Origin: Deltaproteobacteria bacterium
GTDB taxonomy: Bacteria; Desulfobacterota; Syntrophia; Syntrophales; JAFGHS01
NCBI GenBank assembly: GCA_016928025.1
Contig: JAFGLN010000031.1
Location: 1 to 64,000 of the forward strand
DNA length: 64,000 nt
Reading direction: 5' to 3'
This document shows, one piece after another, positions 16,612 to 39,862 of the stretch. The stretch's first letter is position 1. The number at the start of each line of letters is the position of its first letter. The notes below the pieces were generated by a model. That model ran no database searches, was not told the DNA's origin, and saw only the letters and a list, made by a program, of their open reading frames with translations. The translations under genes and the position numbers were made by a program.

Positions 16612-17814
16612 ATGAGCAAAAAGGCTCTTCAAAATATTATGGTGCTGGATTTTAGCCGGTCTATCGCCGGCCCCTATTGCACCAAACTGCTGGCGGCTTT
16701 CGGCGCGGAAGTCATCAAAGTGGAAGAACCGAAACGGGGCGATCCGGCCCGGTATGAAGGGCCTTTCCGGGATGACCGACCCGATCCGGAAGGGAGCGCC
16801 CTGTTTCTCTATCTTAATACGGGGAAAAAAAGCATTACCCTCGACCTGCAGGCAGTCGCCGAAACAAATCTGCTGAAAATGCTGATCAAAGAGGCCGATG
16901 TGCTCGTCGAAAATTTCCCGCCCGGATACATGGCCGATCTGGGTATCGGTTATGAAAAGCTGGCGAAAATTAATCCGGGATTGATTATGGTTTCCCTCAC
17001 GGATTTCGGCCAGGACGGTCCTTACAGGAATTATCAGGGCGGCCGTCTGGTGGAAAATGCCCTCAGCGGGTATATGTATGTCAACGGTGATCCCGGGCGG
17101 GAACCGCTGGCGGGCGGCGGGGAACAGCCCGCCTATCAGGGCGGACTTCACGCCTATGCGGGGATTCTGGCGGCCCTGATTTCACGACAATTGACCGGCC
17201 GGGGCTGGTATATCGATGTTTCCATCATGGAATGTATGGCTTCGCTGCACCAGTTTACGGTCAACCGGTATGCCTATTCCGGAAAAATTCAAAAGCGGGG
17301 CGGCAATCGACATATCTGGAGCCATCCGGTGACCGTTTATCCCTGCCGGGACGGCCACGTCTTGGTCTGCGCCGGTACGGAGGATCAAGCGGAAATGCTG
17401 CTGACGCTCGTTGGGGAGACCGATGCCCTGAATGATCCCCGGTTCGAAAGCGGCATTCAGAGACTTATTCACGCTGATGAATTCGATGGCTTGGTCAAAC
17501 CGTGGTTTCTTGACAAAACCAAAAAAGAAATTGTCGAGATCTGTCAGGAGTGGCGTATTCCTGTGGCACCGGTCAATGAGATCCCCGATCTTTATGAAGA
17601 CGAACAGCTTCGCGCCCGGGAGTACTGGATCGAACTCGATCATCCGGTGGCGGGAAGATTGCCCTATGCCGGCGCGCCCTTCAGAATGTCGGAAACACCG
17701 GCTGTCTACAGCCGGGCACCCCTTTTGGGCGAGCATAATGAAGAAATTTTTATCAGCCGCCTGGGCCTGACGGAAGCGGAAATGGGTCAATTAAAAAAGG
17801 ACGGCGTGATTTAG
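16612..17814 (+). CDS. CaiB/BaiF CoA-transferase, degenerate subunit of pair 1 (Asp to Ala)
   Basis: About 400 residues. The class III CoA-transferase fold is clear: LDFSRSIAGPYCTKLLAAFGAEVIKVEEP, VENFPPGYMADLGIGYEKL, GRGWYIDVSIMECMA, and the GEHNEEIF end. The segment aligned with the nucleophilic Asp169 of formyl-CoA transferase reads AYQGGLHAYAGILAAL, so residue 174 (codon 17131-17133) is Ala. The enzyme cannot form the usual aspartyl-CoA intermediate alone. The next gene keeps the Asp, so a heterodimer is likely. Start: the frame opens at a TTG at 16576, but the ATG at 16612 matches the family N-terminus. Confidence 0.92.
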   Translation: MSKKALQNIMVLDFSRSIAGPYCTKLLAAFGAEVIKVEEPKRGDPARYEGPFRDDRPDPEGSALFLYLNTGKKSITLDLQAVAETNLLKMLIKEADVLVENFPPGYMADLGIGYEKLAKINPGLIMVSLTDFGQDGPYRNYQGGRLVENALSGYMYVNGDPGREPLAGGGEQPAYQGGLHAYAGILAALISRQLTGRGWYIDVSIMECMASLHQFTVNRYAYSGKIQKRGGNRHIWSHPVTVYPCRDGHVLVCAGTEDQAEMLLTLVGETDALNDPRFESGIQRLIHADEFDGLVKPWFLDKTKKEIVEICQEWRIPVAPVNEIPDLYEDEQLRAREYWIELDHPVAGRLPYAGAPFRMSETPAVYSRAPLLGEHNEEIFISRLGLTEAEMGQLKKDGVI

Positions 17815-17900
17815 CGGGCGGCGTGCCCAATTCTGACGAAATGATTTGCACGGCGGCACCTGAGCGGTTGCCGGAACGCAGAGAAAGGAACCCTGTCGAC

Positions 17901-19157
17901 ATGTATCGTTTATTGGAGGGCATCCGGGTGCTCGATCTCACACGGGTCTGGTCGGGACCACTGGCGGGACGCATCCTGGCCGATCTGGGGGCGGAGGTCA
18001 TCCATATTCTCGGCCGCGTGACTGTTTCGGGAGAAAAAATACCTCCCGAACAGGTGGCGGTTTTGGGGACTTTTCCGGAGGATGATCCGGGCGCAAGACC
18101 CTGGAACAGGATGTCTCAGAATAACGACTTCAGCCGCAACAAACTCGGACTCACCCTGGAGCTTGATGTACCGGAAGGCATCGATCTTTTCAAGCGCCTG
18201 GTGGCGAAAAGCGATGTGGTTCTGGAAAATTTCAGTCCCCGGGTCATGACGAATTTCGGTTTGGATTATGACGTTCTCAAGAAAATCAACCCGGCCATTA
18301 TCGTTTGTTCCATGCCGGGTTTCGGTCTGACGGGTCCGCAAAAGGATTATATTTCCTACGGCGTTAATCTGGATTTCTTCTCCGGCCTGGCGAGTTTGAT
18401 GGGTTATCCGAATAAAGGGGCCCATATGTCCGGTAATGCCTATCCCGATGCGACAGCCGCTTTGCATGCCGTTGGCGCCATCCTGACGGCCCTCTTTCAT
18501 AAAATGCGCATGGGAAAGGGACAGCATATCGATCTTTCGCAGGCGGAATCCGCCGTGTCCGTGATCGGTGACGTTGCCCTGGGATTCGCTCTGAATGGTC
18601 ATGTTCCGCGGCGCCGGGGAAACCGCCATCCTGTGTATGCTCCTCACGGATGTTACCAATGCCGGGGGGAAGACCAATGGCTGGCGATTGCCGTATCGAC
18701 GGAAAGCCAGTGGAAGGCACTGATCGGCATTCCGGACATGCCCGCGCAAATGAAGGACGCAAAATACGGCGATCCCGAAAAGCGGCAGGCACATCATGAT
18801 GAACTGGATAAAATGATCGAATCATGGACAATTCAATATGATCACCGCGACGCCATGAGCATTCTTCAGAATGCCGGTATTCCCGCCGGGGCGGTTTTCG
18901 ATGCCGCTGAGCTGTTGGCCGACGAACACCTGTGCGAAAGAGATTTTTTCCTGCAGATGGATCACCCGGAGGCGGGGCTGCGACATTATTGCGGCCTGCC
19001 GATCAAGTTTTCCGGAACACCGGTCTCACCGGGCAATCCTCCTCCCCTGCTGGGCCAGCATAATGAATATGTCTTGAGCAAGATTCTTGGCCTTTCACCG
19101 GAAGAGATTACCCGCTGTGAACAAAATGGTGTCATCGGAACCGAACCGATTGATTAA
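17901..19157 (+). CDS. CaiB/BaiF CoA-transferase, catalytic subunit of pair 1
   Basis: About 418 residues of the class III family (RVLDLTRVWSGPLAGRILADLGAEVI, VLENFSPRVMTNFGLDYDVL, GKGQHIDLSQAESAV, LLGQHNEYVLSKILG). The nucleophile segment reads YPDATAALHAVGAILTAL; the Asp codon is 18447-18449 (residue 183 from this start). The start at 17901 (MYRLLEGIRV) has AGAAAGGAA upstream; the frame is open back to 17823. It follows the Asp-less partner by 86 bp. It is expected to move CoA between a carboxylic acid and an acyl-CoA donor, with the substrate unknown. Confidence 0.92.
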   Translation: MYRLLEGIRVLDLTRVWSGPLAGRILADLGAEVIHILGRVTVSGEKIPPEQVAVLGTFPEDDPGARPWNRMSQNNDFSRNKLGLTLELDVPEGIDLFKRLVAKSDVVLENFSPRVMTNFGLDYDVLKKINPAIIVCSMPGFGLTGPQKDYISYGVNLDFFSGLASLMGYPNKGAHMSGNAYPDATAALHAVGAILTALFHKMRMGKGQHIDLSQAESAVSVIGDVALGFALNGHVPRRRGNRHPVYAPHGCYQCRGEDQWLAIAVSTESQWKALIGIPDMPAQMKDAKYGDPEKRQAHHDELDKMIESWTIQYDHRDAMSILQNAGIPAGAVFDAAELLADEHLCERDFFLQMDHPEAGLRHYCGLPIKFSGTPVSPGNPPPLLGQHNEYVLSKILGLSPEEITRCEQNGVIGTEPID

Positions 19158-19572: not shown

Positions 19573-20355
19573 ATGAAAAAGTCCTCTTCGATCAATTCGG
19601 TTTTCAAAACCTTCCGACTCATTGATATTCTCAGTGTGCCCAATGCCGAATACAGTCTGACGGAAATTACCAAAAGGCTCGATCTTTCCATCGGCGCGGC
19701 GCAAAGAATCACGAATTCACTCATGCAAATCGGTTATCTGGCAAAAGATAAGAAAACCAAGAAATATCGTCTCACTCCCAAATGGCTGTCCGTTGGATTT
19801 GGTATCTTGGCCGGCATGGAAATCCGTAAGATAGCTCTTCCGCACTTGAAACAGCTTTATAAGGAAACGGGCCAAACGGTGAGTTTTGTGATCCGTGACG
19901 GTGACGAAGTCATCTATATCGAACGGCTGACGACCCAGGACTTGATCGGGTTCAACATCAGGACAGGTCTAAAAAGGCCTATGTATATGAATTCCATGGG
20001 GCGGGCGATACTGGCTTATCTGCCGGTTGATGATCAGGCAGAAATATTGAAACGCACCATATCGACCAATGGAAATGCCAAAGGATCGCTCAAGCGCGAC
20101 AAGATGGAGGCAGAGTTAAAAAAAATAAAACAAATGGGCTATGCCATCAACAGAGTCAGTTACAGCGGCGGTGCCATGGCGGTATCCGTGCCCATATTCA
20201 ACCAGAAGGGTAAACCCATTGCCGGTATTAATATCGGTATGCCGCCGAAAACCTCTCCGGAAGACGAACACTTTCATAAAATGGTTGAAATGTTAATGAA
20301 AACGGGGAGAACAATTTCTTCGGAGATCGGTTATATGGATGACATGGAGGAATAG
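19573..20355 (+). CDS. IclR-family transcriptional regulator
   Basis: 260 residues. The N-terminal winged helix-turn-helix (about 10-65: RLIDILSVPNAEYSLTEITKRL, SIGAAQRITNSLMQIGYL) is followed by the IclR ligand-binding domain (QTVSFVIRDGDEVIYIERL, RPMYMNSMGRAILAYL, SYSGGAMAVSVPIF). IclR proteins sense small organic acids, often aromatic or acyl-derived, and control degradation operons. It is the only DNA-binding regulator in the 41-kb acyl-CoA cluster and precedes the crotonase and CoA-transferase run. It is probably autoregulated through the palindrome at 19535-19563. Confidence 0.93.
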   Translation: MKKSSSINSVFKTFRLIDILSVPNAEYSLTEITKRLDLSIGAAQRITNSLMQIGYLAKDKKTKKYRLTPKWLSVGFGILAGMEIRKIALPHLKQLYKETGQTVSFVIRDGDEVIYIERLTTQDLIGFNIRTGLKRPMYMNSMGRAILAYLPVDDQAEILKRTISTNGNAKGSLKRDKMEAELKKIKQMGYAINRVSYSGGAMAVSVPIFNQKGKPIAGINIGMPPKTSPEDEHFHKMVEMLMKTGRTISSEIGYMDDMEE

Positions 20356-20409
20356 GCTGGACCTTTTTCATTGAAACGAACGTAAAATATTGACTGAGAG
20401 GGAGGAGAG

Positions 20410-21252
20410 ATGAGCTGTCTAATATATGAGAGCAAAGACAAGGTCGCCACGATCTCGTTTAACCGGTCTGATAAGCTCAATGCCTTGAACGACGAGCTGT
20501 TGAACGAGTTTAATGCGGCTTTGATAGAAGCCGAACAGGATGACGATGTGGCTGCCTTGGTTCTGAAAGGCAACGGCAGGGCGTTTTGCGCCGGCTATGA
20601 TATCAGCGGAACGGGTACCGCCGATACGGATTTTGATATGCGATCGGAAACCGATGTGACTGAATTGATAAAAAAACAGCGCCGCCGGCAAAAAAGCATC
20701 TTCAACCTGGCCCGGTTTCCCAAAACGAAAATCGCCCAGGTCCACGGCTACTGTCTGGAAATGGGATGCTCCTTCGTCATGGCCTGTGATATTTCCTTTG
20801 CCGACGAGAATGCCCAATTCGGGGATCCTTCAGTGCGCTTTGGGCTGACGACGGATACGCCGTTCTGGTATCATTTGGTTACCCACCGGAAAGCCAAAGA
20901 GCTGCTTTTTACCGGCAGAATTATTGACGGCAGGGAAGCGGAACGCATTGGCATCGTCACGAAGGCGGTTCCCGCGGACCAGTTGGAGCAAAAAGTAAGA
21001 GAGATGGCCTTGACCGCATCCCTGACACCTTTTGATGGGTTGACCAACAATCTGGAAGGCTTTCAGACGGGCATCGACGCCAGGGGTCTGGCGGAAGGCT
21101 GGCGATCCGCCGCAGATCGAAGGGCGTTTGGTATATTACAGCGCCCCGCTTCGCGTTCGGGCGAGTTTAATTTCCTGGATGTCCGTGACCGGAAAGGGTT
21201 GAAAGTAGCCCTCGCCGAGATGAATGCGCCTTACAGGATGTGTGGATATTAG
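20410..21252 (+). CDS. Crotonase-family protein lacking both catalytic glutamates (paralog A1)
   Basis: 280 residues. The oxyanion-hole motif is kept in altered form (GRAFCAGYDISG). The first catalytic Glu is Ser (HGYCLEMGCSFVMACD) and the second is also Ser (FGDPSVRFGL). It therefore should not hydrate enoyl-CoA by the classic mechanism; a hydrolase, decarboxylase or ring-opening role is possible. It is closely similar along its length to the gene at 22435-23283, including the C-terminal EFNFLDVRD...MNAPYR. GGGAGGAGAG precedes the ATG. Confidence 0.9.
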   Translation: MSCLIYESKDKVATISFNRSDKLNALNDELLNEFNAALIEAEQDDDVAALVLKGNGRAFCAGYDISGTGTADTDFDMRSETDVTELIKKQRRRQKSIFNLARFPKTKIAQVHGYCLEMGCSFVMACDISFADENAQFGDPSVRFGLTTDTPFWYHLVTHRKAKELLFTGRIIDGREAERIGIVTKAVPADQLEQKVREMALTASLTPFDGLTNNLEGFQTGIDARGLAEGWRSAADRRAFGILQRPASRSGEFNFLDVRDRKGLKVALAEMNAPYRMCGY

Positions 21253-21328
21253 GACAAGGAACAAGGCTCAAAGCTCGAATACCGCAGACCCTTGACCCTG
21301 TTTTTGTATCGGAGAAAGGAAAGAAACC

Positions 21329-22156
21329 ATGAGTTACGAATACATCCTTTACGAAAAAGAGGCTCCCATCGCCCGGATCATTATGAATCGTCCGGAAAAA
21401 CATAATCCCCTGGGAAAGCCCATGATGAGAGAAATCATCAAAGCCTTGGAGATCGCCGGTGAAGACAGGGAAGTAAAAGTCGTCATCATCAAAGGCGCCG
21501 GCCGTTCTTTCAGTTCGGGACATGACATCCCCGCCATCGGCATGGATATCGAACTCGGTCCGGAATATATAGGAAAGAGGCCCCCGGCAAAAATGCTCAT
21601 TGAGAGAGATGAGTGGCTCAAAAGGGAATTCTATCAATACGTGTTTAATTTTCCGAAACCGACCATCGCGCAGGTTCACGGCTACTGTATATACGGCGGC
21701 AATAATTTCCAGCTTTGCTGCGACATTACCATCGCGGCGGAAAATGCCCAATTCAAGCCCAAAGGCGATACGATCGTCACCATTGCCAGTTACCTGCCTG
21801 CCGACACTTTTGCGACTGGCTTCGGTCCGCGCCATCTCGGTGTCAAGATGGATGGCAAGGTCGCGGAGAAATGGGGTGTGGTCAACCGGGCCGTTCCGCT
21901 GGAAAAGCTCGAGGAAGAAGTGGAAACATTGGCAAAGGTTATTGCCCAAATGCCGGAGGACAGCGTTAACCTGAATAAAAAATGCCTGAACGCCATGATG
22001 GATTTCGATGGTCTGGAGGCGGCCTGGAGAACGACGCATATTGCCCATGCCATGGGGACGCATCAGCGGGTGCGCTCCGATGAGTTCAACATCTTCAAAA
22101 TGAGGGCGAAGGAAGGCGCGTCGGCGGCTATTCATGCGCGTCAACGAAAACGATAG
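21329..22156 (+). CDS. Crotonase-family protein lacking both catalytic glutamates (divergent)
   Basis: 275 residues. The fold is shown by NRPEKHNPLGKPMM, GRSFSSGHDIPA, HGYCIYGGNNFQLCCD and KWGVVNRAVP. The first catalytic Glu is Asn (GGNNF) and the second segment is rewritten (FKPKGDTIVTIASYLPADT). Overall it is nearer to the 52810-53667 protein than to its two neighbours. GGAGAAAGG precedes the ATG. The reaction is not known; it lies between two other crotonases and probably belongs to the same transcript. Confidence 0.88.
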   Translation: MSYEYILYEKEAPIARIIMNRPEKHNPLGKPMMREIIKALEIAGEDREVKVVIIKGAGRSFSSGHDIPAIGMDIELGPEYIGKRPPAKMLIERDEWLKREFYQYVFNFPKPTIAQVHGYCIYGGNNFQLCCDITIAAENAQFKPKGDTIVTIASYLPADTFATGFGPRHLGVKMDGKVAEKWGVVNRAVPLEKLEEEVETLAKVIAQMPEDSVNLNKKCLNAMMDFDGLEAAWRTTHIAHAMGTHQRVRSDEFNIFKMRAKEGASAAIHARQRKR

Positions 22157-22169
22157 CGGAAACGGCTTT

Positions 22170-22277
22170 GTAAAAAGTCCGGATGTGGCGTTGCCCTGCG
22201 ATATTCGTCATTGCGATGTACGCAACTGTACGTCTCATTCCTCATATCTCGTGCGCCTTGCCTGCGGAGCTTTTTAC
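22170..22277. repeat. MITE-like element, family F (GTAAAAAG ends)
   Basis: 108 bp with inverted ends GTAAAAAG and CTTTTTAC, an internal GCGATGTACGCAACTGTACG palindrome and a GCGCCTTGCCTGCGG right arm. The same right arm plus CTTTTTAC survives as fragments at about 30530-30556 and 35762-35796. It has no coding content. Confidence 0.6.
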
Positions 22278-22434
22278 CAAACCTTTGTTCGAATTATTGA
22301 TTAACATGAATCTTCCTTTCGAGAAAAAGAAAATATCAGTGTTTCAATTTTTGCCGCTGACCCGGGGAGAGGGTTTAATAAGGTAGATTGATTTTTTCTC
22401 GTCAACTGAATTGGATTTATTGGAGGAGAAACAT

Positions 22435-23283
22435 ATGGGTTTCGAAAACGTTATCTATACGAAAAAGGATAGGGTTGCCGTCATTTCACTGAATCGCCCT
22501 CATAAGCTAAACGCGCTGAACGAGCCGCTGCTGGCTGATTTTGATGCGGCTTTGAAGGCGGCGGAAGAGGACAGAGCGGTTGCCGTTCTGACCATTCAGG
22601 GAGAAGGTAGGGCGTTTTGCGCCGGCTATGATGTGAGCGGCGACGAAAATTCGGATCCGGCCTTTGACTGGCGAAACAAACCAATGATGTATGATCTGTA
22701 TACCAGAGAAAGACGGCGCCAGGACCGGATTGAGAATCTGGCCCGATTTTCCAAACCGACGATCGCCAAAATTCACGGCTATTGCCTGGAAGCGGGTTGT
22801 TCCATCGTCCTGGCCTGTGATTTTGCCGTGGCGACGGAAGATGCCCGGTTCGGTGATCCTTCCGTGAGAATGGGCATGTGCACGGATCTGCCGCTCTGGT
22901 ATTACGTCCTGGGAATCAAAAGAGCGAAAGAACTGATGCTGACCGGGAAAATCATCGACGCGGCGGAAGCGGAGCGGATCGGCCTGGTCACACAAACAGT
23001 GCCGGTGGATAAAATTGATGAGGAAGTTGACAAGCTCGTCCAGGTCCTGCTGGCGAACCCCGCCGATGCCCTGCGGAATAACCGGGAGGCATTCCAGGCG
23101 GCCCTGGAGGCCAGGGGTCTCTCCGCGGGTTTCCGGTTTGCCGGTGACATGCGGGTTTTCAGCGTCCTGCAGCGACCCGGTTCCCGACCGCGAGAGTTTA
23201 ATTTCTTTGAGCGGCGGGACCAGAAAGGCTTAAAGGCTGCCTTCGAAGATATGAACGCGCCATTTAAGAAGCTGGGATACTAA
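22435..23283 (+). CDS. Crotonase-family protein lacking both catalytic glutamates (paralog A2)
   Basis: 282 residues. It shares with the 20410-21252 protein GRAFCAGYD, HGYCLEAGCSIVLACD (Glu to Ser), FGDPSVRMGM (Glu to Ser) and the EFNFFERRD...MNAPFKKLGY ending, so the two are paralogs that kept the same unusual active site. This argues for a selected, distinct chemistry rather than decay. The strong GGAGGAG precedes the ATG at 22435; an upstream in-frame TTG at 22411 is unlikely. Confidence 0.9.
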   Translation: MGFENVIYTKKDRVAVISLNRPHKLNALNEPLLADFDAALKAAEEDRAVAVLTIQGEGRAFCAGYDVSGDENSDPAFDWRNKPMMYDLYTRERRRQDRIENLARFSKPTIAKIHGYCLEAGCSIVLACDFAVATEDARFGDPSVRMGMCTDLPLWYYVLGIKRAKELMLTGKIIDAAEAERIGLVTQTVPVDKIDEEVDKLVQVLLANPADALRNNREAFQAALEARGLSAGFRFAGDMRVFSVLQRPGSRPREFNFFERRDQKGLKAAFEDMNAPFKKLGY

Positions 23284-23356: not shown

Positions 23357-25090
23357 ATGCTTGCGGATGTTTACAAACTGGAACCTTACGAAAAGATCGA
23401 CAAGGTTGTTGATTTAAAAACAGCTATCGAAAAGCACATCAAAGACGGGATGACCCTCTATATCAGCCGGTCGGCGGAAGCCGCGGCAGCGGAAATCATC
23501 CGTCAGTTCTGGGACCGCAACCCCGATTTTACCCTGATGATGAATCTACCCGGAGGCGCTCAGGCCATGTGCCTGATGCACCGGGGCCTGATCAAAAAAC
23601 TGATTTTCACGACCTGCGCAGACCTCTATCCCAGCCCCAGCCCGAATCCGATTATCCAGCGGGCTTACCGGCAAAAAGCGGTCGAATTCGAAAACTGGTC
23701 GGTTCTGTCCTTTACCCAGGCCCTGATGGCGGGTGCCTTGAACCTGCCTTTTATGCCGACTCTGTCCATTACCGGCAGTGCCATGGCCGAAGAAAACAGC
23801 GGCGCCTTTACTCAGATTGAAGATCCTTTTTCCGGGGAGCCAATCGGTGTCGTAAAGCGTATGAACCCTGACGTGGCGCTCTATCACGGCTGGGCGGCCG
23901 ATGCGGCAGGCAATACCATTATCGCCCCTTACGGTGACGACCGGGAGTGGGGGGCGAAAGCCGCCACGTCCGGTGTTATTGTGACGGTGGAAAAGATCGT
24001 CTCCACGGATTTCATCCGGGAGCACGCCAACATGGTCAAAATACCCGCCTATATGGTGGATGCGGTCTGTCTCGCGCCTTTGGGCGCTCACCCGCGTGCC
24101 ATGAACAGCCGGGGACTTCCGGAATTTGAATCCTATGATGTGGATGTGCCGTTTTTAGAAGACTTCCGGGAGGCGGGCAAAAAACCGGAGACCCTCGATC
24201 AATGGGTCGGAGAGTGGATACTGGGCTGTAAAAACCATGAGGAGCGTCTGAAGAAATTAGGCGTCGAGCGGATTTACCGGCTGAAGGGCAAAACCGCTAA
24301 AGACAGCTGGCAGTACCGCTTTATTCAAACGGCGGATGAAGCCAGTGAACCCAAGCCATATAACGGCATCGAGTTTGCCATTGTCGCCGCCTCTCATAAA
24401 ATTAAGGACATCTTTATAAAGGGCGGCTTCAAAGCCATGTTCGCGGGTATCGGCATCGGTGGACTGGCCGCGTGGCTGGCCTACTATGCCCTGAAATCGG
24501 AAGGTTGTGAGGCGTATATGGTTGGTGCTGGTATCGGTTTCGATCCGCGCCCCGCCGATCCTCTCATGACGTCGTCCAGCAATATTGCCACATCGAGGAT
24601 GCTGGTAGATCCCATTGATATCCACGGCGTCTGCATCGGCGGCGTGAAAAAAGCGTGTCTCGGCATTCTGGGGGCGGCGCAAATCGACAAGAACGGAAAC
24701 CTCAATTCCTCCAAGGTGAGTGAAAAGACTTATATCGGCGGGGCCGGCGGCGGTAATGACATCGCCAACGGCGCGAAAGAGGTCGTTGTCATCACCAAGC
24801 AGAAAAAGGAGCGTTTTCTGGAGAAGGTATCTTACATCACCTGTGCCGGAAACCACGTGAAAACATTGATCTCCGATCTCGGCATTTTTGAAAAGAAAGG
24901 TGCTGCGTTCGAGTTGACGCATTATTTTTCTGCGGACGGAACTGCGAAAGACGACGTTTTGCAAAAGATCGCCGATCGTTGCGGGTGGGAATTGAAGGTC
25001 TCAGAGCGGGTTCAGGCGGCGGCCGAACCGACGGTTGAAGAATTGGCCTTGTTGAGATCGCTCGATCCGGAAGGGGTATTTATCGGTTAG
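23357..25090 (+). CDS. Fused family I CoA-transferase-like protein without nucleophilic Glu (IpdAB-like), copy 1
   Basis: 577 residues. The N-terminal half resembles glutaconate CoA-transferase subunit A (LKTAIEKHIKDGMTLYIS, ALYHGWAADAAGNTI). The C-terminal half resembles subunit B (GAAQIDKNGNLNSS, GGAGGGNDIA, VSYITCAGNHVKTLISDLGIF). The segment that carries the catalytic Glu in subunit B (ESG) reads VGAGIGFDP, so residue 390 is Gly. Loss of this Glu is also reported for IpdAB, a CoA-thioester C-C hydrolase of cholesterol ring cleavage. A ring-opening hydrolase is therefore an alternative to CoA transfer. CGGAGAT precedes the ATG. Confidence 0.88.
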   Translation: MLADVYKLEPYEKIDKVVDLKTAIEKHIKDGMTLYISRSAEAAAAEIIRQFWDRNPDFTLMMNLPGGAQAMCLMHRGLIKKLIFTTCADLYPSPSPNPIIQRAYRQKAVEFENWSVLSFTQALMAGALNLPFMPTLSITGSAMAEENSGAFTQIEDPFSGEPIGVVKRMNPDVALYHGWAADAAGNTIIAPYGDDREWGAKAATSGVIVTVEKIVSTDFIREHANMVKIPAYMVDAVCLAPLGAHPRAMNSRGLPEFESYDVDVPFLEDFREAGKKPETLDQWVGEWILGCKNHEERLKKLGVERIYRLKGKTAKDSWQYRFIQTADEASEPKPYNGIEFAIVAASHKIKDIFIKGGFKAMFAGIGIGGLAAWLAYYALKSEGCEAYMVGAGIGFDPRPADPLMTSSSNIATSRMLVDPIDIHGVCIGGVKKACLGILGAAQIDKNGNLNSSKVSEKTYIGGAGGGNDIANGAKEVVVITKQKKERFLEKVSYITCAGNHVKTLISDLGIFEKKGAAFELTHYFSADGTAKDDVLQKIADRCGWELKVSERVQAAAEPTVEELALLRSLDPEGVFIG

Positions 25091-25106: not shown

Positions 25107-26342
25107 ATGACGGGAACAAAAAGACATCCTCAACCCCTTGATCACCTCACGGTCATCGAAATCGGAAACAACATCTCCACGGCCTATGGTGCCAAGATGC
25201 TGGCCGATCAGGGGGCGGAGGTCATCAAAGTCGAAGATCCGCTGACGGCGGAAATGGACCGGACGGAAAGGATTTTGCCGGGTGATGAGAAAACCGGCTG
25301 CCTGTTTGCTTATATCAACTGCAACAAATTAGGTGTCCGTTTAAACCTGGAGACCGAGAAGGGACAGAAGGTCCTGGCTGATCTGGTCCGCAAGGCGGAT
25401 ATCCTGGTGGAAGGAAACCGGCCTTCCAGAGCGAAAGAGCTGGGACTGGATTATGAGACACTCTCAAAAATCAATCCACGGCTCCTGGTTGCTTCGATTA
25501 CGCCTTTCGGGCAGACAGGGCCTTATTGCGAATATAACGCCTATGCCATCACAGTGAGTGCCGCCGGCGCTTCCAGCGTGTGCATCGGAGAACCCGGACG
25601 AACGCCGCTGCCGCTACCTCTTTCTCAAGTTCATTTTCAGAGTGCCGCCATGGCGGCGACGGCCCTGCTGGGTGGCATTCTGGCCCGGGAATTCACGGGC
25701 CGGGGGCAGCATATCGATATCAGCGAGGCGGAAGTCTGGATCACCCACTTTACGGGGCATGCCGTGATTGCCTATGTCTTTCACAATAGACGCCGCATCC
25801 GGTCAGGTCACAAGACCCAGGCCCTTTTCCCGAATGGGATTTTTCACTGCAAAGACGGCTATATATCCTTGCTGGCCATGCGCGGCGAACAATGGAAGGC
25901 GTATCTCAATATTCTGGGTGAAGGGAAAATGCCGGACTGGTACGCGAATGATGAGAGATTCACAAGGACCAGTTTCCGGGAGCTTAACGTCAAATATGGC
26001 GATGAGTTGGAAGTCCTCATGGAAAAATGGCTGATGACCAAAACAAAAAATGAGATCTTCGAACTGGGCCGGATCAATCATGTTGCTTTGGCCCCGGTCA
26101 GAGATATTCGAGAAGTGCTGGAGGATCCCCATCTCAACGATAGAAAATATTTTGTGGATGTCGATGATCCCCAGTTCGGCAGGCTGAAATATCCCCAGTC
26201 GGCGCTCCGGTTTTCCCAGACGCCCTCCGCTGTTTACCGGCCGGCGCCGACATTGGGGGAGCACAATGAAGAAATTTTTTGCAAACGCCTCGGCTACACC
26301 AAAGAATATGTCAATGAACTTGCCGAATGCGGCGTGATTTAG
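25107..26342 (+). CDS. CaiB/BaiF CoA-transferase, degenerate subunit of pair 2 (Asp to His)
   Basis: 411 residues of the class III family (TVIEIGNNISTAYGAKMLAD, VEGNRPSRAKELGLDYETL, GRGQHIDISEAEVWI, LGEHNEEIFCKRLG). In the nucleophile segment HFQSAAMAATALL the Asp is replaced by His176 (codon 25632-25634). AAGGAG precedes the ATG. The Asp-bearing partner begins 18 bp after its stop. It resembles the degenerate subunits at 16612 and 33060 in its C-terminal wording. Confidence 0.92.
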   Translation: MTGTKRHPQPLDHLTVIEIGNNISTAYGAKMLADQGAEVIKVEDPLTAEMDRTERILPGDEKTGCLFAYINCNKLGVRLNLETEKGQKVLADLVRKADILVEGNRPSRAKELGLDYETLSKINPRLLVASITPFGQTGPYCEYNAYAITVSAAGASSVCIGEPGRTPLPLPLSQVHFQSAAMAATALLGGILAREFTGRGQHIDISEAEVWITHFTGHAVIAYVFHNRRRIRSGHKTQALFPNGIFHCKDGYISLLAMRGEQWKAYLNILGEGKMPDWYANDERFTRTSFRELNVKYGDELEVLMEKWLMTKTKNEIFELGRINHVALAPVRDIREVLEDPHLNDRKYFVDVDDPQFGRLKYPQSALRFSQTPSAVYRPAPTLGEHNEEIFCKRLGYTKEYVNELAECGVI

Positions 26343-30988: not shown

Positions 30989-31016
30989 AATATTTTAAAG
31001 AGGGAAACCATTGACC

Positions 31017-32783
31017 ATGAGTACCGAAATGATTGACGTCATCCGGCGGAATTTTGATCTGGATCTGGCTGAGGGCGGGGAAGACAAAGTCGTCGACCTT
31101 CCCGACGCCGTCAGAAAGCACATCAAACCGGGGCAGGCAATACTCCTGGGCGAATTCGCCAATGCGGCGACGCGGGAGATAGCGCGGCAGTTCCGGGATA
31201 CCGATGCGGCTTTCACCATTATCAATGCCAGCCGGGACTATTTATCGGCCCTGGTTTACAACGGCCTGGTAAAAAAGCTCATCGGTGTGGCCTATATGCA
31301 CCTCTACCCCACTACCGGGCCGAACCGCCTCATTCAAAAGGCCTTCAACGAAGGGCGCATTGCGATCGAGGGATGGACGTCCATCAGTTTGCAGCAGCGG
31401 TTGATCGCGGGTGCCATGGATATGGAATGTATGGTGACCAAGTCCCTCCTCGGGTCCGATATGGTTGCGGACAATTCGAGTAGTCTCCATACATTCCAAT
31501 GTCCTTTTGAGAGCGGGAAGGAGTTGGCCCTGGTCAAAGCGATCAATCCCGATATTGCCGTTGTCCACGGCTGGTTTGCCGACCGGCAGGGTAACATCAT
31601 TATGGGATCGCCTTACTATATGGGAACGAGCACCTGGGGCGCCCGGGCCAGTAAGGAAGGGGTTGTGGCGACGGTGGAAAAAATCGTTTCGACGGAGTTC
31701 ATCCGGAAGCATTCCTGCCTGGTGTCCATTCCCAGCTATATGGTGAAATCGGTTTCCGAAGTCCCGTTCGGAGCCCATCCTCAGAGCATGAATACCCTAG
31801 GCCTCGGCATGGACGGATATACCAGTTATCGGCCGGACATCCCCTTCATCGGCGCATACCGGGACACCGTTTCGGACCCTGCCAAGTTGAAGGCCTGGAT
31901 GGACGAGTGGGTTTATAATTGCTCCAGCCAGGAAGACTATCTGGCAAAACTGGGACGTGAGCGGCTCGATGCATTGTCTTCAGGCATCGGCGAGGGTGAG
32001 GGGCAGATGGAACTGGCTAATCTTTTAAGCACCGTATCCTTCAGCCCCGAATACACAAAAAACGAATTGACCGTTGTGGCGGCGGCGAGAAAGATCGAGG
32101 AGATCGTCCTCCGGAAGGGTTATGTCAATTTCCTGCTCGGCGTCGGTTTCAGCGCCCTGGCCGGCTGGTCAGCATACTACCAGCTGAAAAAGCAAGACAT
32201 CCCCATTAAATTGTTGATCGGCACGGGGGTATACGGCTATTCGCCGCAGCCCGGCAATCCGTCCATCGGCGCGACGTCCAACATCGAAACGGGCTGCCTG
32301 ATGACCGATGCGTTCCAGAGCTACGGCACGTTCATCGGCGGATACAACAATCGCTGCTTGAGCGTCCTGGGGGCGGCGCAGGTCGACAAACACGGCAACG
32401 TCAACGCGACCAAGGTGAACGGCCAGTTTATCGCCGGCTCCGGGGGATCCAACGACGCGGTGAACGCACAAGAGGTCATGGTCATTTCCCGGCAGTCTCC
32501 CAAGCGTTATGTCGATCGCGTCGATTACATTACCTCTCCGGGGACGAGGGTCAAAACCCTCGTGTCCGACATGGGGGTTTTTGAGAAACTGGGCGACGAC
32601 AAAGAATTCACATTGACGGGCGTCCATGTTAGCGGGGCCGGTTTGGAGGAGAAGATCAAAACAGTTCGTGAGAACTGCGGCTGGGACCTGAAGGTTGCCG
32701 CCGATGTGAAGGAGATGGCCGCGCCGGATGTGGAAGAGCTGGCTATGATCCGGTGCTTTGATCCGGACAGGTTGTATAGATAA
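31017..32783 (+). CDS. Fused family I CoA-transferase-like protein without nucleophilic Glu (IpdAB-like), copy 2
   Basis: 588 residues, the same A+B fusion as 23357-25090 and clearly its paralog (VVHGWFADRQGNIIMG, GAAQVDKHGNVNATKV, GSGGSNDAV, YITSPGTRVKTLVSDMGVF). The catalytic-Glu position again holds Gly (residue 402 in LLIGTGVYGYSPQP). Two separately retained copies sharing the same loss point to a real function. The ATG at 31017 has GAGGGA about 12 bases upstream; a TTG at 31011 is in frame. It may act as a CoA-thioester ring hydrolase like IpdAB (inference). Confidence 0.88.
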   Translation: MSTEMIDVIRRNFDLDLAEGGEDKVVDLPDAVRKHIKPGQAILLGEFANAATREIARQFRDTDAAFTIINASRDYLSALVYNGLVKKLIGVAYMHLYPTTGPNRLIQKAFNEGRIAIEGWTSISLQQRLIAGAMDMECMVTKSLLGSDMVADNSSSLHTFQCPFESGKELALVKAINPDIAVVHGWFADRQGNIIMGSPYYMGTSTWGARASKEGVVATVEKIVSTEFIRKHSCLVSIPSYMVKSVSEVPFGAHPQSMNTLGLGMDGYTSYRPDIPFIGAYRDTVSDPAKLKAWMDEWVYNCSSQEDYLAKLGRERLDALSSGIGEGEGQMELANLLSTVSFSPEYTKNELTVVAAARKIEEIVLRKGYVNFLLGVGFSALAGWSAYYQLKKQDIPIKLLIGTGVYGYSPQPGNPSIGATSNIETGCLMTDAFQSYGTFIGGYNNRCLSVLGAAQVDKHGNVNATKVNGQFIAGSGGSNDAVNAQEVMVISRQSPKRYVDRVDYITSPGTRVKTLVSDMGVFEKLGDDKEFTLTGVHVSGAGLEEKIKTVRENCGWDLKVAADVKEMAAPDVEELAMIRCFDPDRLYR

Positions 32784-33059: not shown

Positions 33060-34271
33060 ATGACAAAAAAAGCCTTGAGTGGACTGAAAATCGTTGAATA
33101 CGGCCATTTCATTTCGGCGCCGTATTGCACGAAACTGATGGCCGATCTGGGTGCTGAAGTCATCAAGATTGAAAATCCCGCTGAGGGCGGCGATGAATCG
33201 AGACGCCACGGCCCTTTCCCCGGCGATGTACCGCATCCGGAGAAGAGCGGTCTGTTTCTGTGGCTTAATGCCAACAAAAAGGGCATTGCTCTGGATATTA
33301 CATCGGACGCGGGACGGGATGTTTTTTGCAAACTGCTGAATGATGCAGATGTTTTTGTGGCCAATTATCCGCCCAGCGAGACGGAGGAATTAGGCATCGA
33401 TTACGAAGCACTTTCCGGGATTAATCCGCAGCTCGTTGTCACGAGCATCTCGCCATTCGGCCAGTGGGGACCCTACCGGGATTATAAAGCTTATGAATTG
33501 AACTGTCAGGCGGCCGGAGGCGTCAGTGTGGCGTCCGGTGATCCGGAAAGAGCGCCGCTCGTTTTGCCTTTATTCCAGAGCTACTATCAGGCCGGTGCCG
33601 CCGCGGCCGGGGCGACGCTCACGGCGTTGCTTGCCCGCGACAGAATCGGCCGCGGTCAGCACATCGAGATCTCGGAGGTGGAAGTATCGGCCAACAACCT
33701 CGTGGGGCAGCATTTAACCACCTACATCTACCGCGGCCTCACCGGAATCAGGAAAGGTCATCAAGGCGGCTATTTCAACTATCCCACCTGCTGTCTGCCG
33801 TGCAAAGACGGCTATATCTGTCTTGTTGCCCCGCAGGTCGCCCAGTGGAAACGATTCATTGAACTCATGGGAACTCCCGAGTGGTCGAAAAACCCGCGCT
33901 ACCGCGACCGCCGCGAAATGGCGGAATCCTATCCCGAGGAGGTAGACGCCCTCCTGATTGACTGGTTAAAGGACTATACGAAGGAAGAAATTTTTGCCCT
34001 GTGCATGGAGCATCATATCCCCTTCAGTCCGGTCAGAACCGTTGATGAAGTCGCTCATGATAAGCAGCTTGAAGCGCGACGCTTTTTTGTCGAAATCGAT
34101 CATCCTGTCGCGGGGAAATTGAAATATCCCGGCACAGGTTATGAGTTATCCAAGACGCCCGTGAAAATCGAATGCGCAGCGCCCCGTCTGGGCGAACACA
34201 ACCGGGAGATCATGGGCGAACGTCTGGGATATTCCGATGAAGACATCGAACGAATCATAAAGGAGCAATGA
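33060..34271 (+). CDS. CaiB/BaiF CoA-transferase, degenerate subunit of pair 3 (Asp to Tyr)
   Basis: 403 residues (LKIVEYGHFISAPYCTKLMADL, FVANYPPSETEELGIDYEAL, GRGQHIEISEVEVSA, LGEHNREIMGERLG). The nucleophile segment is SYYQAGAAAAGATLTALL; Tyr175 (codon 33582-33584) stands where the Asp should be. Its stop codon is one base before the ATG of the Asp-bearing partner, so the two are translationally coupled. That is strong support for a stable two-subunit enzyme. Confidence 0.93.
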   Translation: MTKKALSGLKIVEYGHFISAPYCTKLMADLGAEVIKIENPAEGGDESRRHGPFPGDVPHPEKSGLFLWLNANKKGIALDITSDAGRDVFCKLLNDADVFVANYPPSETEELGIDYEALSGINPQLVVTSISPFGQWGPYRDYKAYELNCQAAGGVSVASGDPERAPLVLPLFQSYYQAGAAAAGATLTALLARDRIGRGQHIEISEVEVSANNLVGQHLTTYIYRGLTGIRKGHQGGYFNYPTCCLPCKDGYICLVAPQVAQWKRFIELMGTPEWSKNPRYRDRREMAESYPEEVDALLIDWLKDYTKEEIFALCMEHHIPFSPVRTVDEVAHDKQLEARRFFVEIDHPVAGKLKYPGTGYELSKTPVKIECAAPRLGEHNREIMGERLGYSDEDIERIIKEQ

Positions 34272-34272
34272 C

Positions 34273-35505
34273 ATGTTGAGTCTTGAAGGCTATAGAATCG
34301 TTGATTTCGGAACAGCCTGGGCGGGTCCCATGACCACGCAACTCTTGGCGGATATGGGTGCCGAGGTCATCAAAGTGGAAACAAAAAGCCGTCTGGATGG
34401 TCTTCGGATGGGCCGGCCGATCGTAGGAGACGATATCGCCGGCGGCGATGAGGGAAAGTGGCCGAATCTGCAGCCGGCCTTCCATTCGTTGAATCGCAAT
34501 AAGATGAGCATCACCGTGGACATCAAAACGGAAAAGGGCCTTGATCTGATCAGAAACCTGATCAGGCTCAGCGATGTGGTGAGCGATAATTTCAGTCCCG
34601 GTGTCCTGGACAGAGCCGGTCTGGGGTATGACGATCTGGTCAAAATCAAATCGGATATTATTTGTATTTCATTAAGCGGCGTTGGGCAATACGGTCCCCT
34701 GAAAGACGCGACTCTTTATGCCAACACCATTATGGCCCTGTCCGGTTTGAGTTCTCTTATCGGTTATAAGGGAGAGCCGCTTATGGGAATGTCCGCCGTG
34801 GCGTATGGCGATGCCAACGCCAGTATCCATGCGGCCTTCACGATCTTAGCCGCTCTGTTTCATCGAAAGAGGACAGGCGAAGGACAAAAAATCGATCTGG
34901 CGGAAGCCCAGATGGGTAGCAGCCTGATGGGCGAAGCCCTGATGGATTATTTTATGAACGGACGCATTGCCGAGCCTCAAGGCAACCGCCATCCCACTAT
35001 GGCGCCTCATAATAACTATCAATGCGAAGGCGAAGACAAATGGATTTCCATTGCCGTCAGGACCGACGAAGAATGGAATAAATTTTGTGAAGCCATCGGA
35101 AATCCCGAATGGTGCAAGGACGAGAAGTTTGCCGATGCGAAGAGTCGCTGGGAAAACCAGGACGAATTGGATCGGCACATTACGGAATGGACCATCGATC
35201 GGGAGAACAACGATGTGATGGAACTCCTGCAGGGCGTCGGCGTTGCCGCTGTTTCCTGTATGAATACGGAGGACCAGTATTTCGATCCCCATTTCAATGA
35301 GCGGCAAAGCCACATTGAAATCGAACATCCTCTGGTGGGGGTGGAGTCGCTTTACGGTATTCCCTGGCGATTGAGCGAAACGCCGGGCGAAATTTACCGT
35401 CCGGCGCCGTCCATCGGGGAGCATAATGATTATGTTTTTGGGGAACTTTTAGGCAAATCGAAAGAGGAGATTGAAAGGTTGGTTGAGGCGAAGGTTATTT
35501 ATTAA
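34273..35505 (+). CDS. CaiB/BaiF CoA-transferase, catalytic subunit of pair 3
   Basis: 410 residues (YRIVDFGTAWAGPMTTQLLAD, VSDNFSPGVLDRAGLGYDDL, GEGQKIDLAEAQMGSS, IGEHNDYVFGELLG). The nucleophile Asp180 lies in AYGDANASIHAAFTILAAL (codon 34810-34812). The ribosome-binding site AAGGAG is inside the end of the upstream gene. It closely resembles the catalytic subunit of pair 2. Confidence 0.93.
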   Translation: MLSLEGYRIVDFGTAWAGPMTTQLLADMGAEVIKVETKSRLDGLRMGRPIVGDDIAGGDEGKWPNLQPAFHSLNRNKMSITVDIKTEKGLDLIRNLIRLSDVVSDNFSPGVLDRAGLGYDDLVKIKSDIICISLSGVGQYGPLKDATLYANTIMALSGLSSLIGYKGEPLMGMSAVAYGDANASIHAAFTILAALFHRKRTGEGQKIDLAEAQMGSSLMGEALMDYFMNGRIAEPQGNRHPTMAPHNNYQCEGEDKWISIAVRTDEEWNKFCEAIGNPEWCKDEKFADAKSRWENQDELDRHITEWTIDRENNDVMELLQGVGVAAVSCMNTEDQYFDPHFNERQSHIEIEHPLVGVESLYGIPWRLSETPGEIYRPAPSIGEHNDYVFGELLGKSKEEIERLVEAKVIY

Positions 35506-35512: not shown

Positions 35513-35698
35513 GTTGCCCGAATCTCTCTTCGCTTGCCTGAAATTTTTTCGAACAAATCTCAGGCTTGTTTCAGGCGATTTCATAACTCGCCTTCGACTC
35601 AGACAGTTGAAATCGCTGATCTTACGCTTCGCCTTGATTTGTTAACGAAAAAAGTTCAATGGCCGCTCCGAGAGATTCTTGAGCAACGGTTGTTAAGA
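35513..35698. repeat. Long-hairpin repeat, family C, copy C2
   Basis: Second copy of the 30297-30500 element, with the same CGCTTGCCTG, ATTTTTTCGA and ACAGTTGAAATCGCTG landmarks. Its arms are more degraded. A family F end fragment follows at about 35762-35796, then family B copy B4, the same order as in the 30297-30988 gap. Confidence 0.75.
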
Positions 35699-35880
35699 AA
35701 ATAGCATAGAATATTAAATTTGTGCCTTTGGGAAGACGGATTTGGAGAAGGTATCCGGAAGACGCGCCTTGCCTGCGGCCTTTTTACGAAGCCGCGTTTG
35801 AGAGGCGATATTTGACATTTGATCGAAGTAAGCGGCGATTTTTTATGCTCTCCATAAAGGGAGAGGGGGAACGTTGTGAC

Positions 35881-36065
35881 GGTAGCGTGCCGGAGCCCGA
35901 AGTCGCGAATTGAATGTTTTCCGGGGTCCCCTGCGCGCGCAGCGGAACGTCCGACGGGACGAATGTTTGAGCGCCGAAGGCGAGAGTTTTCGTTCCGGCA
36001 GTGCAGCGAGCAGCTGCAGGGTCGAGAAAAGATTCTTGAGCGGCGGAGGGCTTCAAACGCTGTTT
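35881..36065. repeat. Long-hairpin repeat, family B, copy B4 (orientation of B2)
   Basis: Same element as B2, no 25-bp palindrome. It ends about 20 bp before the ATG of the next CoA-transferase gene, so it forms most of the leader of that gene. Confidence 0.85.
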
Positions 36066-36086
36066 CAAAAGAATTGAGGAAATGAC

Positions 36087-37322
36087 ATGGCCGAAGAAAA
36101 AAAACAAAACCTTCAGGATGGTGCCTTGACGGGCATCAAGATTCTGGATTTGAGCCGTACCTTACCGGGGCCTTTCTGTACACTGATGCTGGCGGATATG
36201 GGGGCGGAGGTCATCAAAATCCAGGAGGCCCGGCGCCGACGGAATTCTCTGGAGACCCTGGTGCCGAAGTCCGAGCTGACCACCGACGACCTGAAGGCAG
36301 GCTATACGCCTCATCGAGCCATCGACCGGAACAAGAAAGGCATTGCTCTTAATTTAAAAAACGAGGCGGCCCGTGAGATTTTTTACAAGCTGGTGAAAGA
36401 CGGTGATGTCGTGGTTATTGAGTTCCGCCCTGATGTTGGTAAGCGCCTCAAGATCGACTATGACACGTTGAAAGCCATCAATCCGCGAATTATCTATTGC
36501 GCTGTTACAGCTTATGGTCAGGATGGTCCCTATGCTGATTATCCCGCCCACGATGCAAATGTCATTGCTGCTGCCGGCATTTTGGGTGCGACAGGTACGC
36601 CTGACGGGCAATATGTCCTGCCGGGCGTGCCCATTGCCGATCTTTGCGGGGGAGGCATGAACGCCGCTGTCGGTATTCTGACGGCCCTTTTTGCCCGGGA
36701 GAAGACAGGGAGGGGGCAGTTTGTCGACATTTCCATGATGGATGGTGCGGTGGCCATGATGCTGGCTCGTCACAACATGCTTTACGGTATTACCGGCCAA
36801 TCGCCGAAGGCCGGCCAGCGGCCGTCCCATGTGTACCGTACCAGGGATGATAAGTCTATCTGTTTTGCCGGCGGCGAGCCCTGGTTCTGGGAAAGACTTT
36901 GTAAAACTTTGGATCTGGAAGAACTGATTCCCTATGATCAGGCCATTAAGCCGTTTGCGGGCTTCAGTAAGGAACGGGAATGGGTCATCTCAAAACTGAC
37001 GGAGAAATTTCTCTCCAAGACCCGCGATGAATGGCTGGAGAGCCTGCATAAGGCCGATACATGCATTGCCCCGGTCCATACGGCCATGGATGACGTCCTT
37101 AACGATCCGCAGGTGAAGCACCGCCGGATGATGGTAGAGGTTGAAGATCCCATTCTCGGGAAGATTCCACAACCGGGTATCGCCATCAAGCTGTCTGAGA
37201 CGCCGGGCCGGATACGGACTCTTGCGCCCAGGCACGGCCAGCACACATCGGAGATATTGGCCGGGCTGGGGTACAGCGATGAAGAGGTTGAAGAATTAAA
37301 GAAAGACGGCGCGGTCGTTTGA
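36087..37322 (+). CDS. CaiB/BaiF CoA-transferase, single catalytic gene
   Basis: 411 residues (IKILDLSRTLPGPFCTLMLADM, VIEFRPDVGKRLKIDYDTL, GRGQFVDISMMDGAV, GQHTSEILAGLGYSDEEV). The nucleophile Asp185 is in PIADLCGGGMNAAVGILTAL (codon 36639-36641). It is most like the other single gene at 27617-28801 (shared YSDEE/YSEDE C-terminus) and looks like a conventional enzyme. The ribosome-binding site is weak (GAGGAAATG). Confidence 0.93.
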   Translation: MAEEKKQNLQDGALTGIKILDLSRTLPGPFCTLMLADMGAEVIKIQEARRRRNSLETLVPKSELTTDDLKAGYTPHRAIDRNKKGIALNLKNEAAREIFYKLVKDGDVVVIEFRPDVGKRLKIDYDTLKAINPRIIYCAVTAYGQDGPYADYPAHDANVIAAAGILGATGTPDGQYVLPGVPIADLCGGGMNAAVGILTALFAREKTGRGQFVDISMMDGAVAMMLARHNMLYGITGQSPKAGQRPSHVYRTRDDKSICFAGGEPWFWERLCKTLDLEELIPYDQAIKPFAGFSKEREWVISKLTEKFLSKTRDEWLESLHKADTCIAPVHTAMDDVLNDPQVKHRRMMVEVEDPILGKIPQPGIAIKLSETPGRIRTLAPRHGQHTSEILAGLGYSDEEVEELKKDGAVV

Positions 37323-37397: not shown

Positions 37398-37423
37398 GAA
37401 CCTATCTTCTTGAGGAGTTTTTT

Positions 37424-39862
37424 ATGTCTAAATCTGCACTGAGCGGTATTAAAGTTGTTGAACTGGCGACGATGTATTCCGGACCTTACTGTGGAAAATT
37501 GCTGGCGGACCTCGGCGCCGATGTTATCAAGGTCGAACCGCCCGTGGGTGACCCCGCACGTTTTGAAGGTGCGTTTCCGACGGAAGAACCCCATCCCGAA
37601 AAGAGCGTCCTTTTTCTCTATTTGAACACGAGTAAACGCGGCGTGACTTTCGATTTGAACAAAACCGCCGACCTGGAGCAATTCAAAAAGCTGCTTGGCT
37701 GGGCCGATGTTCTTATCGACAACCATCGCCCCGATTATCTGCCGAGCTTGGGACTGGACTGGCAAACCATCCGGAAATTATATCCCCGTTTGATTTATAC
37801 CTCCATTACGCCTTATGGATGCGTCGGTCCCCGGGCCCTCCAGGAAGCGGGCGAAATGACGATCGTCCATGCCGCGGGATTGGGCAATCTCCTGCCCGCC
37901 AAAGCGGTGGATATCAGCAGACCTCCCGTCAAAACGGGCGGAAACACAGCCCAGTATATCGCCGGTATCTATGCGGCTTTGAGTACCGCTGCGTCCCTCA
38001 TTGGCAGGCGCAAAACCGGGTTGGGCAATTTCATCGACATATCGATTCAAGATGTGATTATGAATCTCATTGCGCCTCGGATCACGATGAACAGATACCA
38101 GTTTACCTCATGGGGCCGTGTTCCCGATCGTCCTCAGGCCATGGGCCGGATGGAAACGAGCGATGGGTATATTGTGCTGGCGGCCAACGACGATCATCAT
38201 TTCCGCGCCGTTCGTGAATTGGTGGGCAATCCTGATTGGGCGCAGAACGATGGCTGGAACGATCGAGGCTGGCGGCTTAATCATCTGATGGATGTTGCGC
38301 CCCAGATGGAAGCCTGGATGCGCGAGCAGAAAAAATTTGAACTCTATCACCGGGCCGCCAAAATGAAGATTCCTATCGGGACGATCAACACGGCCAAAGA
38401 CGTCATGGAAAGCGAACAGTACAAATCGCGGGGATTTTTCATTGATGTGGATCATCCGGTGGCCGGAAAATACCCTTACGCCGGATGGTCTTACAAGATG
38501 CCCGCTTCGCCGCCCCGGGTCAGCCGGCCGTCACCCTTGTTGGGCCAGCATAATGAAGAGGTTTTTTCGGAGATTGCGAAAATAGAGCCAGTTGATGTTA
38601 AACCTTTATCTCAGAAAGATTTGGCAAATCCGGAAAATTTTGTGCACCCCCTCAAAGGCATCCGGATTCTCGATTTCAGCTGGGTCTGGGCGGGTCCTTA
38701 CTGTAATCTCCTTTTGGGCGCCCTGGGGGCCGAGGTGATCAAAATCGAGGGCCATAACCGGCTGGATCTGTCCCGCCGTAACTATCCGTGGCCTCTTCCC
38801 AATCCGGCACCGATAAAAACGCCGCCCAACCAGGGCATGTCCTTCAATTCCGTCAACATGAATAAAAAGAGTGCGACCATCGATCTAAGCAAACCGGAAG
38901 GGCTGGCGCTGACCCGAAAGCTCGTCGCCGTGAGCAACGTCGTCATCGACAACATGCGTGCCGGCGCCATGATCAAGCTCGGCCTTGGCTATGAAGACCT
39001 GCGCCGGATCCGCCCCGACATCATCGCCATGACCATTGCCAGCCGCGGAATGACCGGCCCGGAAAGGGATTATCTCGGTTATGCCAATATCCATCACGCC
39101 ATCGGCGGCGCGGCCTATTTAACGGGTTTCCCCGATGACCACCCCAGCCATGGTGCGGGCGGCGATACGGACATCTTTGATGCCACAACGGCTGCATTCG
39201 CCGTCGTCGCGGCACTTCATCACCATGCGCAGACGGGTGAGGGACAGTTCATCGATCTGTCTCAATGTGAGGGGGTCAGTTCCCTCATCGGCGAGTATCT
39301 TCTGGAATACGCCATGACCGGCAAAATCCCGGAACGCATCGGCAATGCCCATCCGCGGTATGCCCCCCATGCCGTTTATCGATGCTGGGGCGTCGACCGC
39401 TGGCTGGCGCTGGAAATCCGTTCCGATGATGAATTTGCAAAACTGGCCCGGATCATCGGGCGGCCGGAGCTGGTGACGAACCGGCGTTTTAAGACGATGG
39501 CCGCCCGCAAGCGAAACGAAAAGGCCCTCGATAAATTCATTGAAGACTGGACGAAAGAACGGGATCGCGACTGGATGGTCAAGGAATTTTGTGAAGCGGG
39601 CCTGATTGCGGCGCCATCCCGTGAGGGGAGAGACCTGTATGCGGACGAACATCTCCGGGTTAGAGGAAGCTTTGTTAAAATCGACCATCCGGAACTCGGT
39701 GAATTGGAAATGGTCAGGGTCCCCTGGCGGATGAACGATCAATTGGCGCCGATGACGGCCGCCCCGCAATTGGCGAAACACAACCCATACGTCTTCGGCG
39801 AAATCCTGGAGCTGAGCAATGAGGAGATAAACGAACTGAGAGACAAGAAGGTGATAATGTAG
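37424..39862 (+). CDS. Fused double CaiB/BaiF CoA-transferase (degenerate half + catalytic half)
   Basis: 812 residues, twice the family length. The N-terminal domain (about 1-385) has VVELATMYSGPYCGKLLADLG, GLGNFIDISIQDVIM and LLGQHNEEVFSEIA. After a short linker a second full domain (about 404-812) begins IRILDFSWVWAGPYCNLLLGALG. In the N-half the nucleophile position is Gln177 (QYIAGIYAALSTA, codon 37952-37954); in the C-half Asp586 is kept (FDATTAAFAVVAAL, codon 39179-39181). This is a one-chain version of the Asp-less/Asp-bearing pairs elsewhere in the cluster, in the same order, and supports a heterodimer model for them. There is no internal stop or frame change. Confidence 0.95.
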   Translation: MSKSALSGIKVVELATMYSGPYCGKLLADLGADVIKVEPPVGDPARFEGAFPTEEPHPEKSVLFLYLNTSKRGVTFDLNKTADLEQFKKLLGWADVLIDNHRPDYLPSLGLDWQTIRKLYPRLIYTSITPYGCVGPRALQEAGEMTIVHAAGLGNLLPAKAVDISRPPVKTGGNTAQYIAGIYAALSTAASLIGRRKTGLGNFIDISIQDVIMNLIAPRITMNRYQFTSWGRVPDRPQAMGRMETSDGYIVLAANDDHHFRAVRELVGNPDWAQNDGWNDRGWRLNHLMDVAPQMEAWMREQKKFELYHRAAKMKIPIGTINTAKDVMESEQYKSRGFFIDVDHPVAGKYPYAGWSYKMPASPPRVSRPSPLLGQHNEEVFSEIAKIEPVDVKPLSQKDLANPENFVHPLKGIRILDFSWVWAGPYCNLLLGALGAEVIKIEGHNRLDLSRRNYPWPLPNPAPIKTPPNQGMSFNSVNMNKKSATIDLSKPEGLALTRKLVAVSNVVIDNMRAGAMIKLGLGYEDLRRIRPDIIAMTIASRGMTGPERDYLGYANIHHAIGGAAYLTGFPDDHPSHGAGGDTDIFDATTAAFAVVAALHHHAQTGEGQFIDLSQCEGVSSLIGEYLLEYAMTGKIPERIGNAHPRYAPHAVYRCWGVDRWLALEIRSDDEFAKLARIIGRPELVTNRRFKTMAARKRNEKALDKFIEDWTKERDRDWMVKEFCEAGLIAAPSREGRDLYADEHLRVRGSFVKIDHPELGELEMVRVPWRMNDQLAPMTAAPQLAKHNPYVFGEILELSNEEINELRDKKVIM

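Follow-up and report, generated by a model that had tools for sequence, protein, structure and literature searches.

Four BbsEF-type class III CoA-transferase units in one bacterial gene cluster: probable pairs of a catalytic and a non-catalytic subunit

The stretch of DNA studied here, referred to as the window, comprises 64,000 nucleotides of contig JAFGLN010000031.1 from a deltaproteobacterium of the order Syntrophales, the genome of which is available as a draft of 3.68 Mb in 126 contigs. Nine genes in the window encode ten CaiB domains (Table 1), and all of these reading frames are intact, co-oriented and free of internal stops. The B gene of unit 1 may start with GTG at position 17823 instead of ATG at 17901. 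Besides the features listed in Table 1, the neighborhood includes genes for an SMP-30 lactonase-like protein, an acyl-CoA ligase and a methylmalonyl-CoA mutase-like protein, and as a whole it fits a putative catabolic island for carboxylic acids. A block of four genes, for a class I CoA-transferase-like protein, an A subunit, a B subunit and a lone CaiB protein, occurs twice (23357-28801 and 31011-37322), with identities between the copies of 40%, 43%, 50% and 42%, respectively, such that units 2 and 3 appear to sit in a duplicated block. Both copies are conserved in a genome of the same genus (L127). In the two class I-like proteins, the region of the catalytic Glu seems altered when inspected by eye; the alignments with PDB entries stop short of this region.

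Table 1. CaiB genes and selected neighbors in the window. A, BbsE-type subunit; B, BbsF-type subunit; residues are those at the nucleophile position unless numbered
Feature	Coordinates	Strand	Remarks
A (BbsE-type) subunit, unit 1	16612..17814	+	Ala, kept in the G001 orthologue
B (BbsF-type, putatively catalytic) subunit, unit 1	17901..19157	+	Asp; best PDB match 9fn0_B
IclR-type regulator and three crotonase-fold (ECH) genes	19573..23283	+	
Fused class I CoA-transferase-like protein (relative of GctAB/AibAB/IpdAB)	23357..25090	+	First gene of block 1
A subunit, unit 2	25107..26342	+	His, also in orthologue; best PDB match 9fn0_A
B subunit, unit 2	26361..27608	+	Asp (alignment and tree)
Lone ordinary CaiB CoA-transferase	27617..28801	+	Asp, plus N96, R104 and D140
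FAS1-dehydratase/MaoC-like protein	29118..30284	+	Between the blocks
Fused class I CoA-transferase-like protein	31011..32783	+	First gene of block 2
A subunit, unit 3	33060..34271	+	Tyr, also in orthologue; best PDB match 9fn0_A
B subunit, unit 3	34273..35505	+	Asp (alignment and tree)
Lone ordinary CaiB CoA-transferase	36087..37322	+	Asp (alignment and tree)
Unit 4, A-B fusion, 812 aa	37424..39862	+	N-terminal half A-type, Gln; C-terminal half B-type, Asp

The ten domains were aligned with each other and, in larger sets, with BbsE, BbsF, SUGCT, YfdE, a Frc-like enzyme and formyl-CoA transferase (Frc) from Escherichia coli. The initial annotation had assigned a residue to each domain at the position of the nucleophile, Frc Asp169, and independent alignments returned the same residue in all ten cases. 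It also holds that the Asp-less member precedes the Asp-bearing one in all four units and that both lone genes have Asp. In the ten-domain alignment, the four Asp-less window domains are devoid of Asp for about six residues on either side of the site, the sole acidic residue nearby being a Glu three residues upstream in the protein encoded at 16612. A shifted catalytic Asp in the A subunits was ruled out by several alignments, those with formyl-CoA transferase, BbsE and BbsF included.

The source genome encodes 34 CaiB domains (36 Pfam matches, with two genes matched in two pieces). Nine of them lack the Asp and carry Gly, Gly, Ser, Ala, His, Tyr, Gln, Tyr and Trp in its place. Every one of the nine adjoins or is fused to an Asp-bearing domain, and not a single lone CaiB domain without Asp was found among the 34. 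If residues were assigned at random, the probability that all nine pairs contain a single Asp-less member would be about 1e-5, and the pattern is therefore not due to chance. In one divergent pair (L014, 1783-4460), which has Trp at the nucleophile site, the Asp-bearing member comes first. An ordinary CaiB gene at G000:C115:35573-36664 (L007) contains two in-frame stops and is probably a pseudogene or an assembly error.

In a tree calculated with IQ-TREE after removal of the nucleophile columns, eight of the nine Asp-less domains of the genome, those of the four window units included, form one clade with BbsE of PDB entry 9FN0 (support 100/98), and the Asp-bearing partners form one clade with BbsF (support 100/99). 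The L014 pair is a separate lineage outside of both clades, and the number of BbsEF-type units in this genome is eight. The main groups follow a similar branching order in both subtrees. The aligned Asp of the B subunits is BbsF residue 178, counted along the chain, and the solved benzylsuccinate CoA-transferase structure 9FOL bears the title 'D178-CoA adduct + succinate'; BbsE has Tyr in the same column. When the fused 812-residue protein was submitted to Foldseek, the second match was the BbsF chain of 9FN0 (9fn0_D), with a TM score of 0.94 by target length and 34% identity between its B half and BbsF. In all four window units the two members fall into the two clades, Asp is present only in the F-type member and the E-type member comes first of the adjacent genes. 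Judged by these sequence features, the four units are very probably heterodimeric class III CoA-transferases of the BbsEF type with a non-catalytic A and a catalytic B subunit. NCBIfam models gave just generic matches below their cut-offs. Relatives in plasmid records carry generic "CoA transferase" names, and no characterized one was identified among them. Viral contigs contain nine weaker relatives.

Loci from named genomes and whole-genome searches yielded 84 A/B units, 78 of which remained after removal of near-copies. Similarity to the window A subunits was the criterion by which the units were collected, and the counts describe this sample rather than all bacteria. The pairing occurs in many phyla, with at least 11 units in one relative (G003) and at least six each in two others (G029 and G102). 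The densest arrangement seen is that of the window, with four units within 23 kb; the flanks fetched from other loci were short. The A gene comes first in 83 of 84 units, the single exception being unit L087. A BbsE-type gene in G012 (L189, 5559-8331) has no adjacent partner, and a transposase gene occupies the place where the partner would be expected. Elsewhere (L006, 442-8414) a BbsEF-type unit adjoins genes for two 2-hydroxyacyl-CoA dehydratase (HGD-D) subunits, a BadF-type activator and a sigma-54 activator; this locus resembles a system for the dehydration of 2-hydroxyacids in which the transferase is heterodimeric.

An Asp nucleophile is present in 79 of 79 B sequences, with BbsF counted, and likewise in each of the 124 sampled ordinary CaiB proteins. 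The A subunits (n = 78) have Gly (14), Tyr (14), Asp (12), Glu (10), Ala (7), Gln (7), His (6), Ser (4), Phe (2), Leu (1) or Ile (1) at this site. Eleven kinds of residues and at least six to eight changes between Asp and non-Asp on the A tree imply that the site is unconstrained between lineages. The A subunits are one lineage in which this site drifts, and the reading of the different replacements as repeated recruitment or repeated meaningful substitution is not supported by the single clade and its variability. The absence of Asp was also rejected as the defining feature of A, since 12 A subunits have it, among them those of L134, L135, L019, L038, L132, L152 and L179.

In mesaconyl-CoA transferase, CoA is bound by Asn100 at its pantetheine arm and by Arg104 at a phosphate (PMC9196870); by position, we infer that Frc positions 96 and 104 are the counterparts of these residues. 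Asn96 together with Arg or Lys104 is found in 61 of 78 B subunits and 104 of 124 ordinary CaiB proteins, as opposed to 8 of 78 A subunits. None of the 12 Asp-bearing A subunits retains this combination, and the four window A subunits have neither it nor the Asp. The loss in A thus appears wider than that of the nucleophile, extending to most of the CoA-binding residues, and the BbsE-type copy is likely a pseudoenzyme. Position 140 shows the reverse: an acidic residue is present in 60 of 78 A subunits and 115 of 124 ordinary CaiB proteins and in none of the 78 B subunits, which have Gly or Ala instead. We suggest that loss of the acid may open space in the B site.

The chains of class III CoA-transferases interlock, and their active sites lie at the chain interface (PMC9813914). 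Fused units make up 27 of the 78, with A as the N-terminal half in every case, and parsimony gives about 12 changes between the fused and the separate state. AlphaFold2 modeling of the fused window protein, based on an input alignment of 27 fused sequences, gave a pLDDT of 90.4 and a pTM of 0.93, so that the placement of the two halves relative to each other is predicted with confidence and the protein would form one compact body. The distance matrices of A and B correlate with r = 0.90 across the 78 units; within five genomes r is 0.85-0.99, with Mantel p values from 0.0002 to 0.02. The correlation points to inheritance as units and by itself does not prove contact; correlated trees are also expected from simple co-duplication of neighboring genes. 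Fusion is the stronger argument for pairing. Together with the clades shared with BbsE and BbsF, these data support the heterodimers of the BbsEF type put forward in the initial annotation, and the subunits of the unfused units presumably pair physically as well.

In the mechanism that we propose, the Asp of B would react with an acyl-CoA donor to form an anhydride and then aspartyl-CoA, from which CoA would be passed to the acceptor acid. A would serve as a pseudoenzyme partner, its own site lacking the nucleophile and most of the CoA-binding residues. As class III active sites are formed where two interlocking chains meet, A would be needed to complete the B site. Each dimer would possess one active site, A would shape the acyl pocket, and different units would use different carboxylic acids in the catabolic island. 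In broader terms, BbsEF-type proteins may be a single large lineage, spread across phyla, whose members are obligate pairs of an enzyme and a pseudoenzyme, in which A has lost the CoA site and B, reciprocally, the acid at position 140, perhaps making room for bulky acids, and in which units have been repeatedly duplicated and re-fused, giving each acid its own transferase. We assign this reading a probability of about 0.55.

The same cluster with the same gene order exists in the same-genus genome (G001), where the orthologues are 69-90% identical and each A replacement is kept. Values of dN/dS against G001, approximate since dS exceeds 1, range from 0.06 to 0.15 in the A subunits and from 0.04 to 0.16 in the B subunits, and A is under purifying selection similar to that on its partner. 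The Asp-less genes could be seen as decaying duplicates retained by chance linkage, as their wide variation at the site and relaxed CoA residues might indicate, but intact reading frames, partner-like dN/dS values, the like pairing in many phyla and repeated fusions render this highly improbable. The claim that random decay does not account for the replacements therefore stands, and of the structural or allosteric subunit suggested at the outset, the retained non-catalytic subunit is upheld and the allosteric role is without support. A regulatory or allosteric sensor, whose former CoA pocket binds a ligand specific to the unit, would agree with unit-specific residues being kept in the same-genus orthologues; however, most residues are conserved anyway at 74-88% identity, the site drifts freely between lineages, and we found no positive evidence for such a function, which we regard as improbable.

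Hardly more probable, and still unlikely, is that the A subunits are active themselves, either with another nucleophile or with none (as a lyase, a racemase or in intramolecular transfer), each unit then consisting of two cooperating enzymes. Purifying selection on A would agree with this, as would the acid at position 140 that most A subunits keep and B subunits have lost, and CoA transfer without a nucleophile has been proposed for ThnP, an unrelated enzyme of family I (PMC11659651). An active site would be conserved, though, and 11 different residues occupy that of A; moreover, the inferred CoA-binding combination at positions 96 and 104 is lost in 70 of 78 A subunits. Pairs of an enzyme and a pseudoenzyme are the reading we prefer.

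Most CaiB genes are annotated merely as "CoA transferase". The signatures described here, Asp169, Asn96 and Gly or Ala140 for B and loss of the CoA residues for A, suggest, on the basis of sequence only, which genes need to be expressed jointly and would account for the apparent inactivity of an Asp-less gene that is expressed by itself. The BbsEF-type family would also provide many natural pairs of enzyme and pseudoenzyme in which to study the transition from homodimer to obligate heterodimer.

Homodimeric class III enzymes such as Frc, YfdE, SUGCT and CaiB have the fold, the Asp nucleophile and the interlocked dimer in common with the window units (PMC9813914). They differ in that one gene provides two active sites and in the acid at position 140, which is usual in ordinary CaiB proteins and absent from B subunits. 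The Asp and the CoA pocket that each chain of these enzymes carries are lacking in the four window A subunits and present in the lone protein encoded at 27617. DddD resembles the fusion at 37424 in its domain layout, having two CaiB domains fused in tandem and a single catalytic Asp. It differs as a DMSP CoA-transferase/lyase that acts as a lyase on DMSP (PMC4437653). Succinyl-CoA:phthalate CoA-transferase, SptAB, cited in PMC11659651, belongs to family III and handles a bulky diacid; its name points to two gene products.

The closest counterpart is BbsEF itself, succinyl-CoA:(R)-benzylsuccinate CoA-transferase (PDB 9FN0, 9FOL and 9FUN), which shares with the window units two CaiB-fold subunits from the E and F clades and an Asp in F only (D178). 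The scanned window proteins include no product of toluene-pathway (bss/bbs) genes and no benzylsuccinate synthase. The genome encodes about nine glycyl radical enzymes (L190-L196), two pairs of them close together; their scores are nearest to dehydratase/PFL2 models, none reaching the curated cut-offs, and a benzylsuccinate link through them was rejected as none of the nine could be assigned. The two-subunit design is already known, and the window units appear to be further members, which differ from BbsEF in their divergent sequences and in the arrangement of four units, one of them fused, in a single cluster. No earlier mapping of copy number, distribution or extent of disabling was found in the sources consulted, and new compared with BbsEF are the unit-wise expansion to eight in one genome, the duplicated four-gene block and the reciprocal change at position 140.
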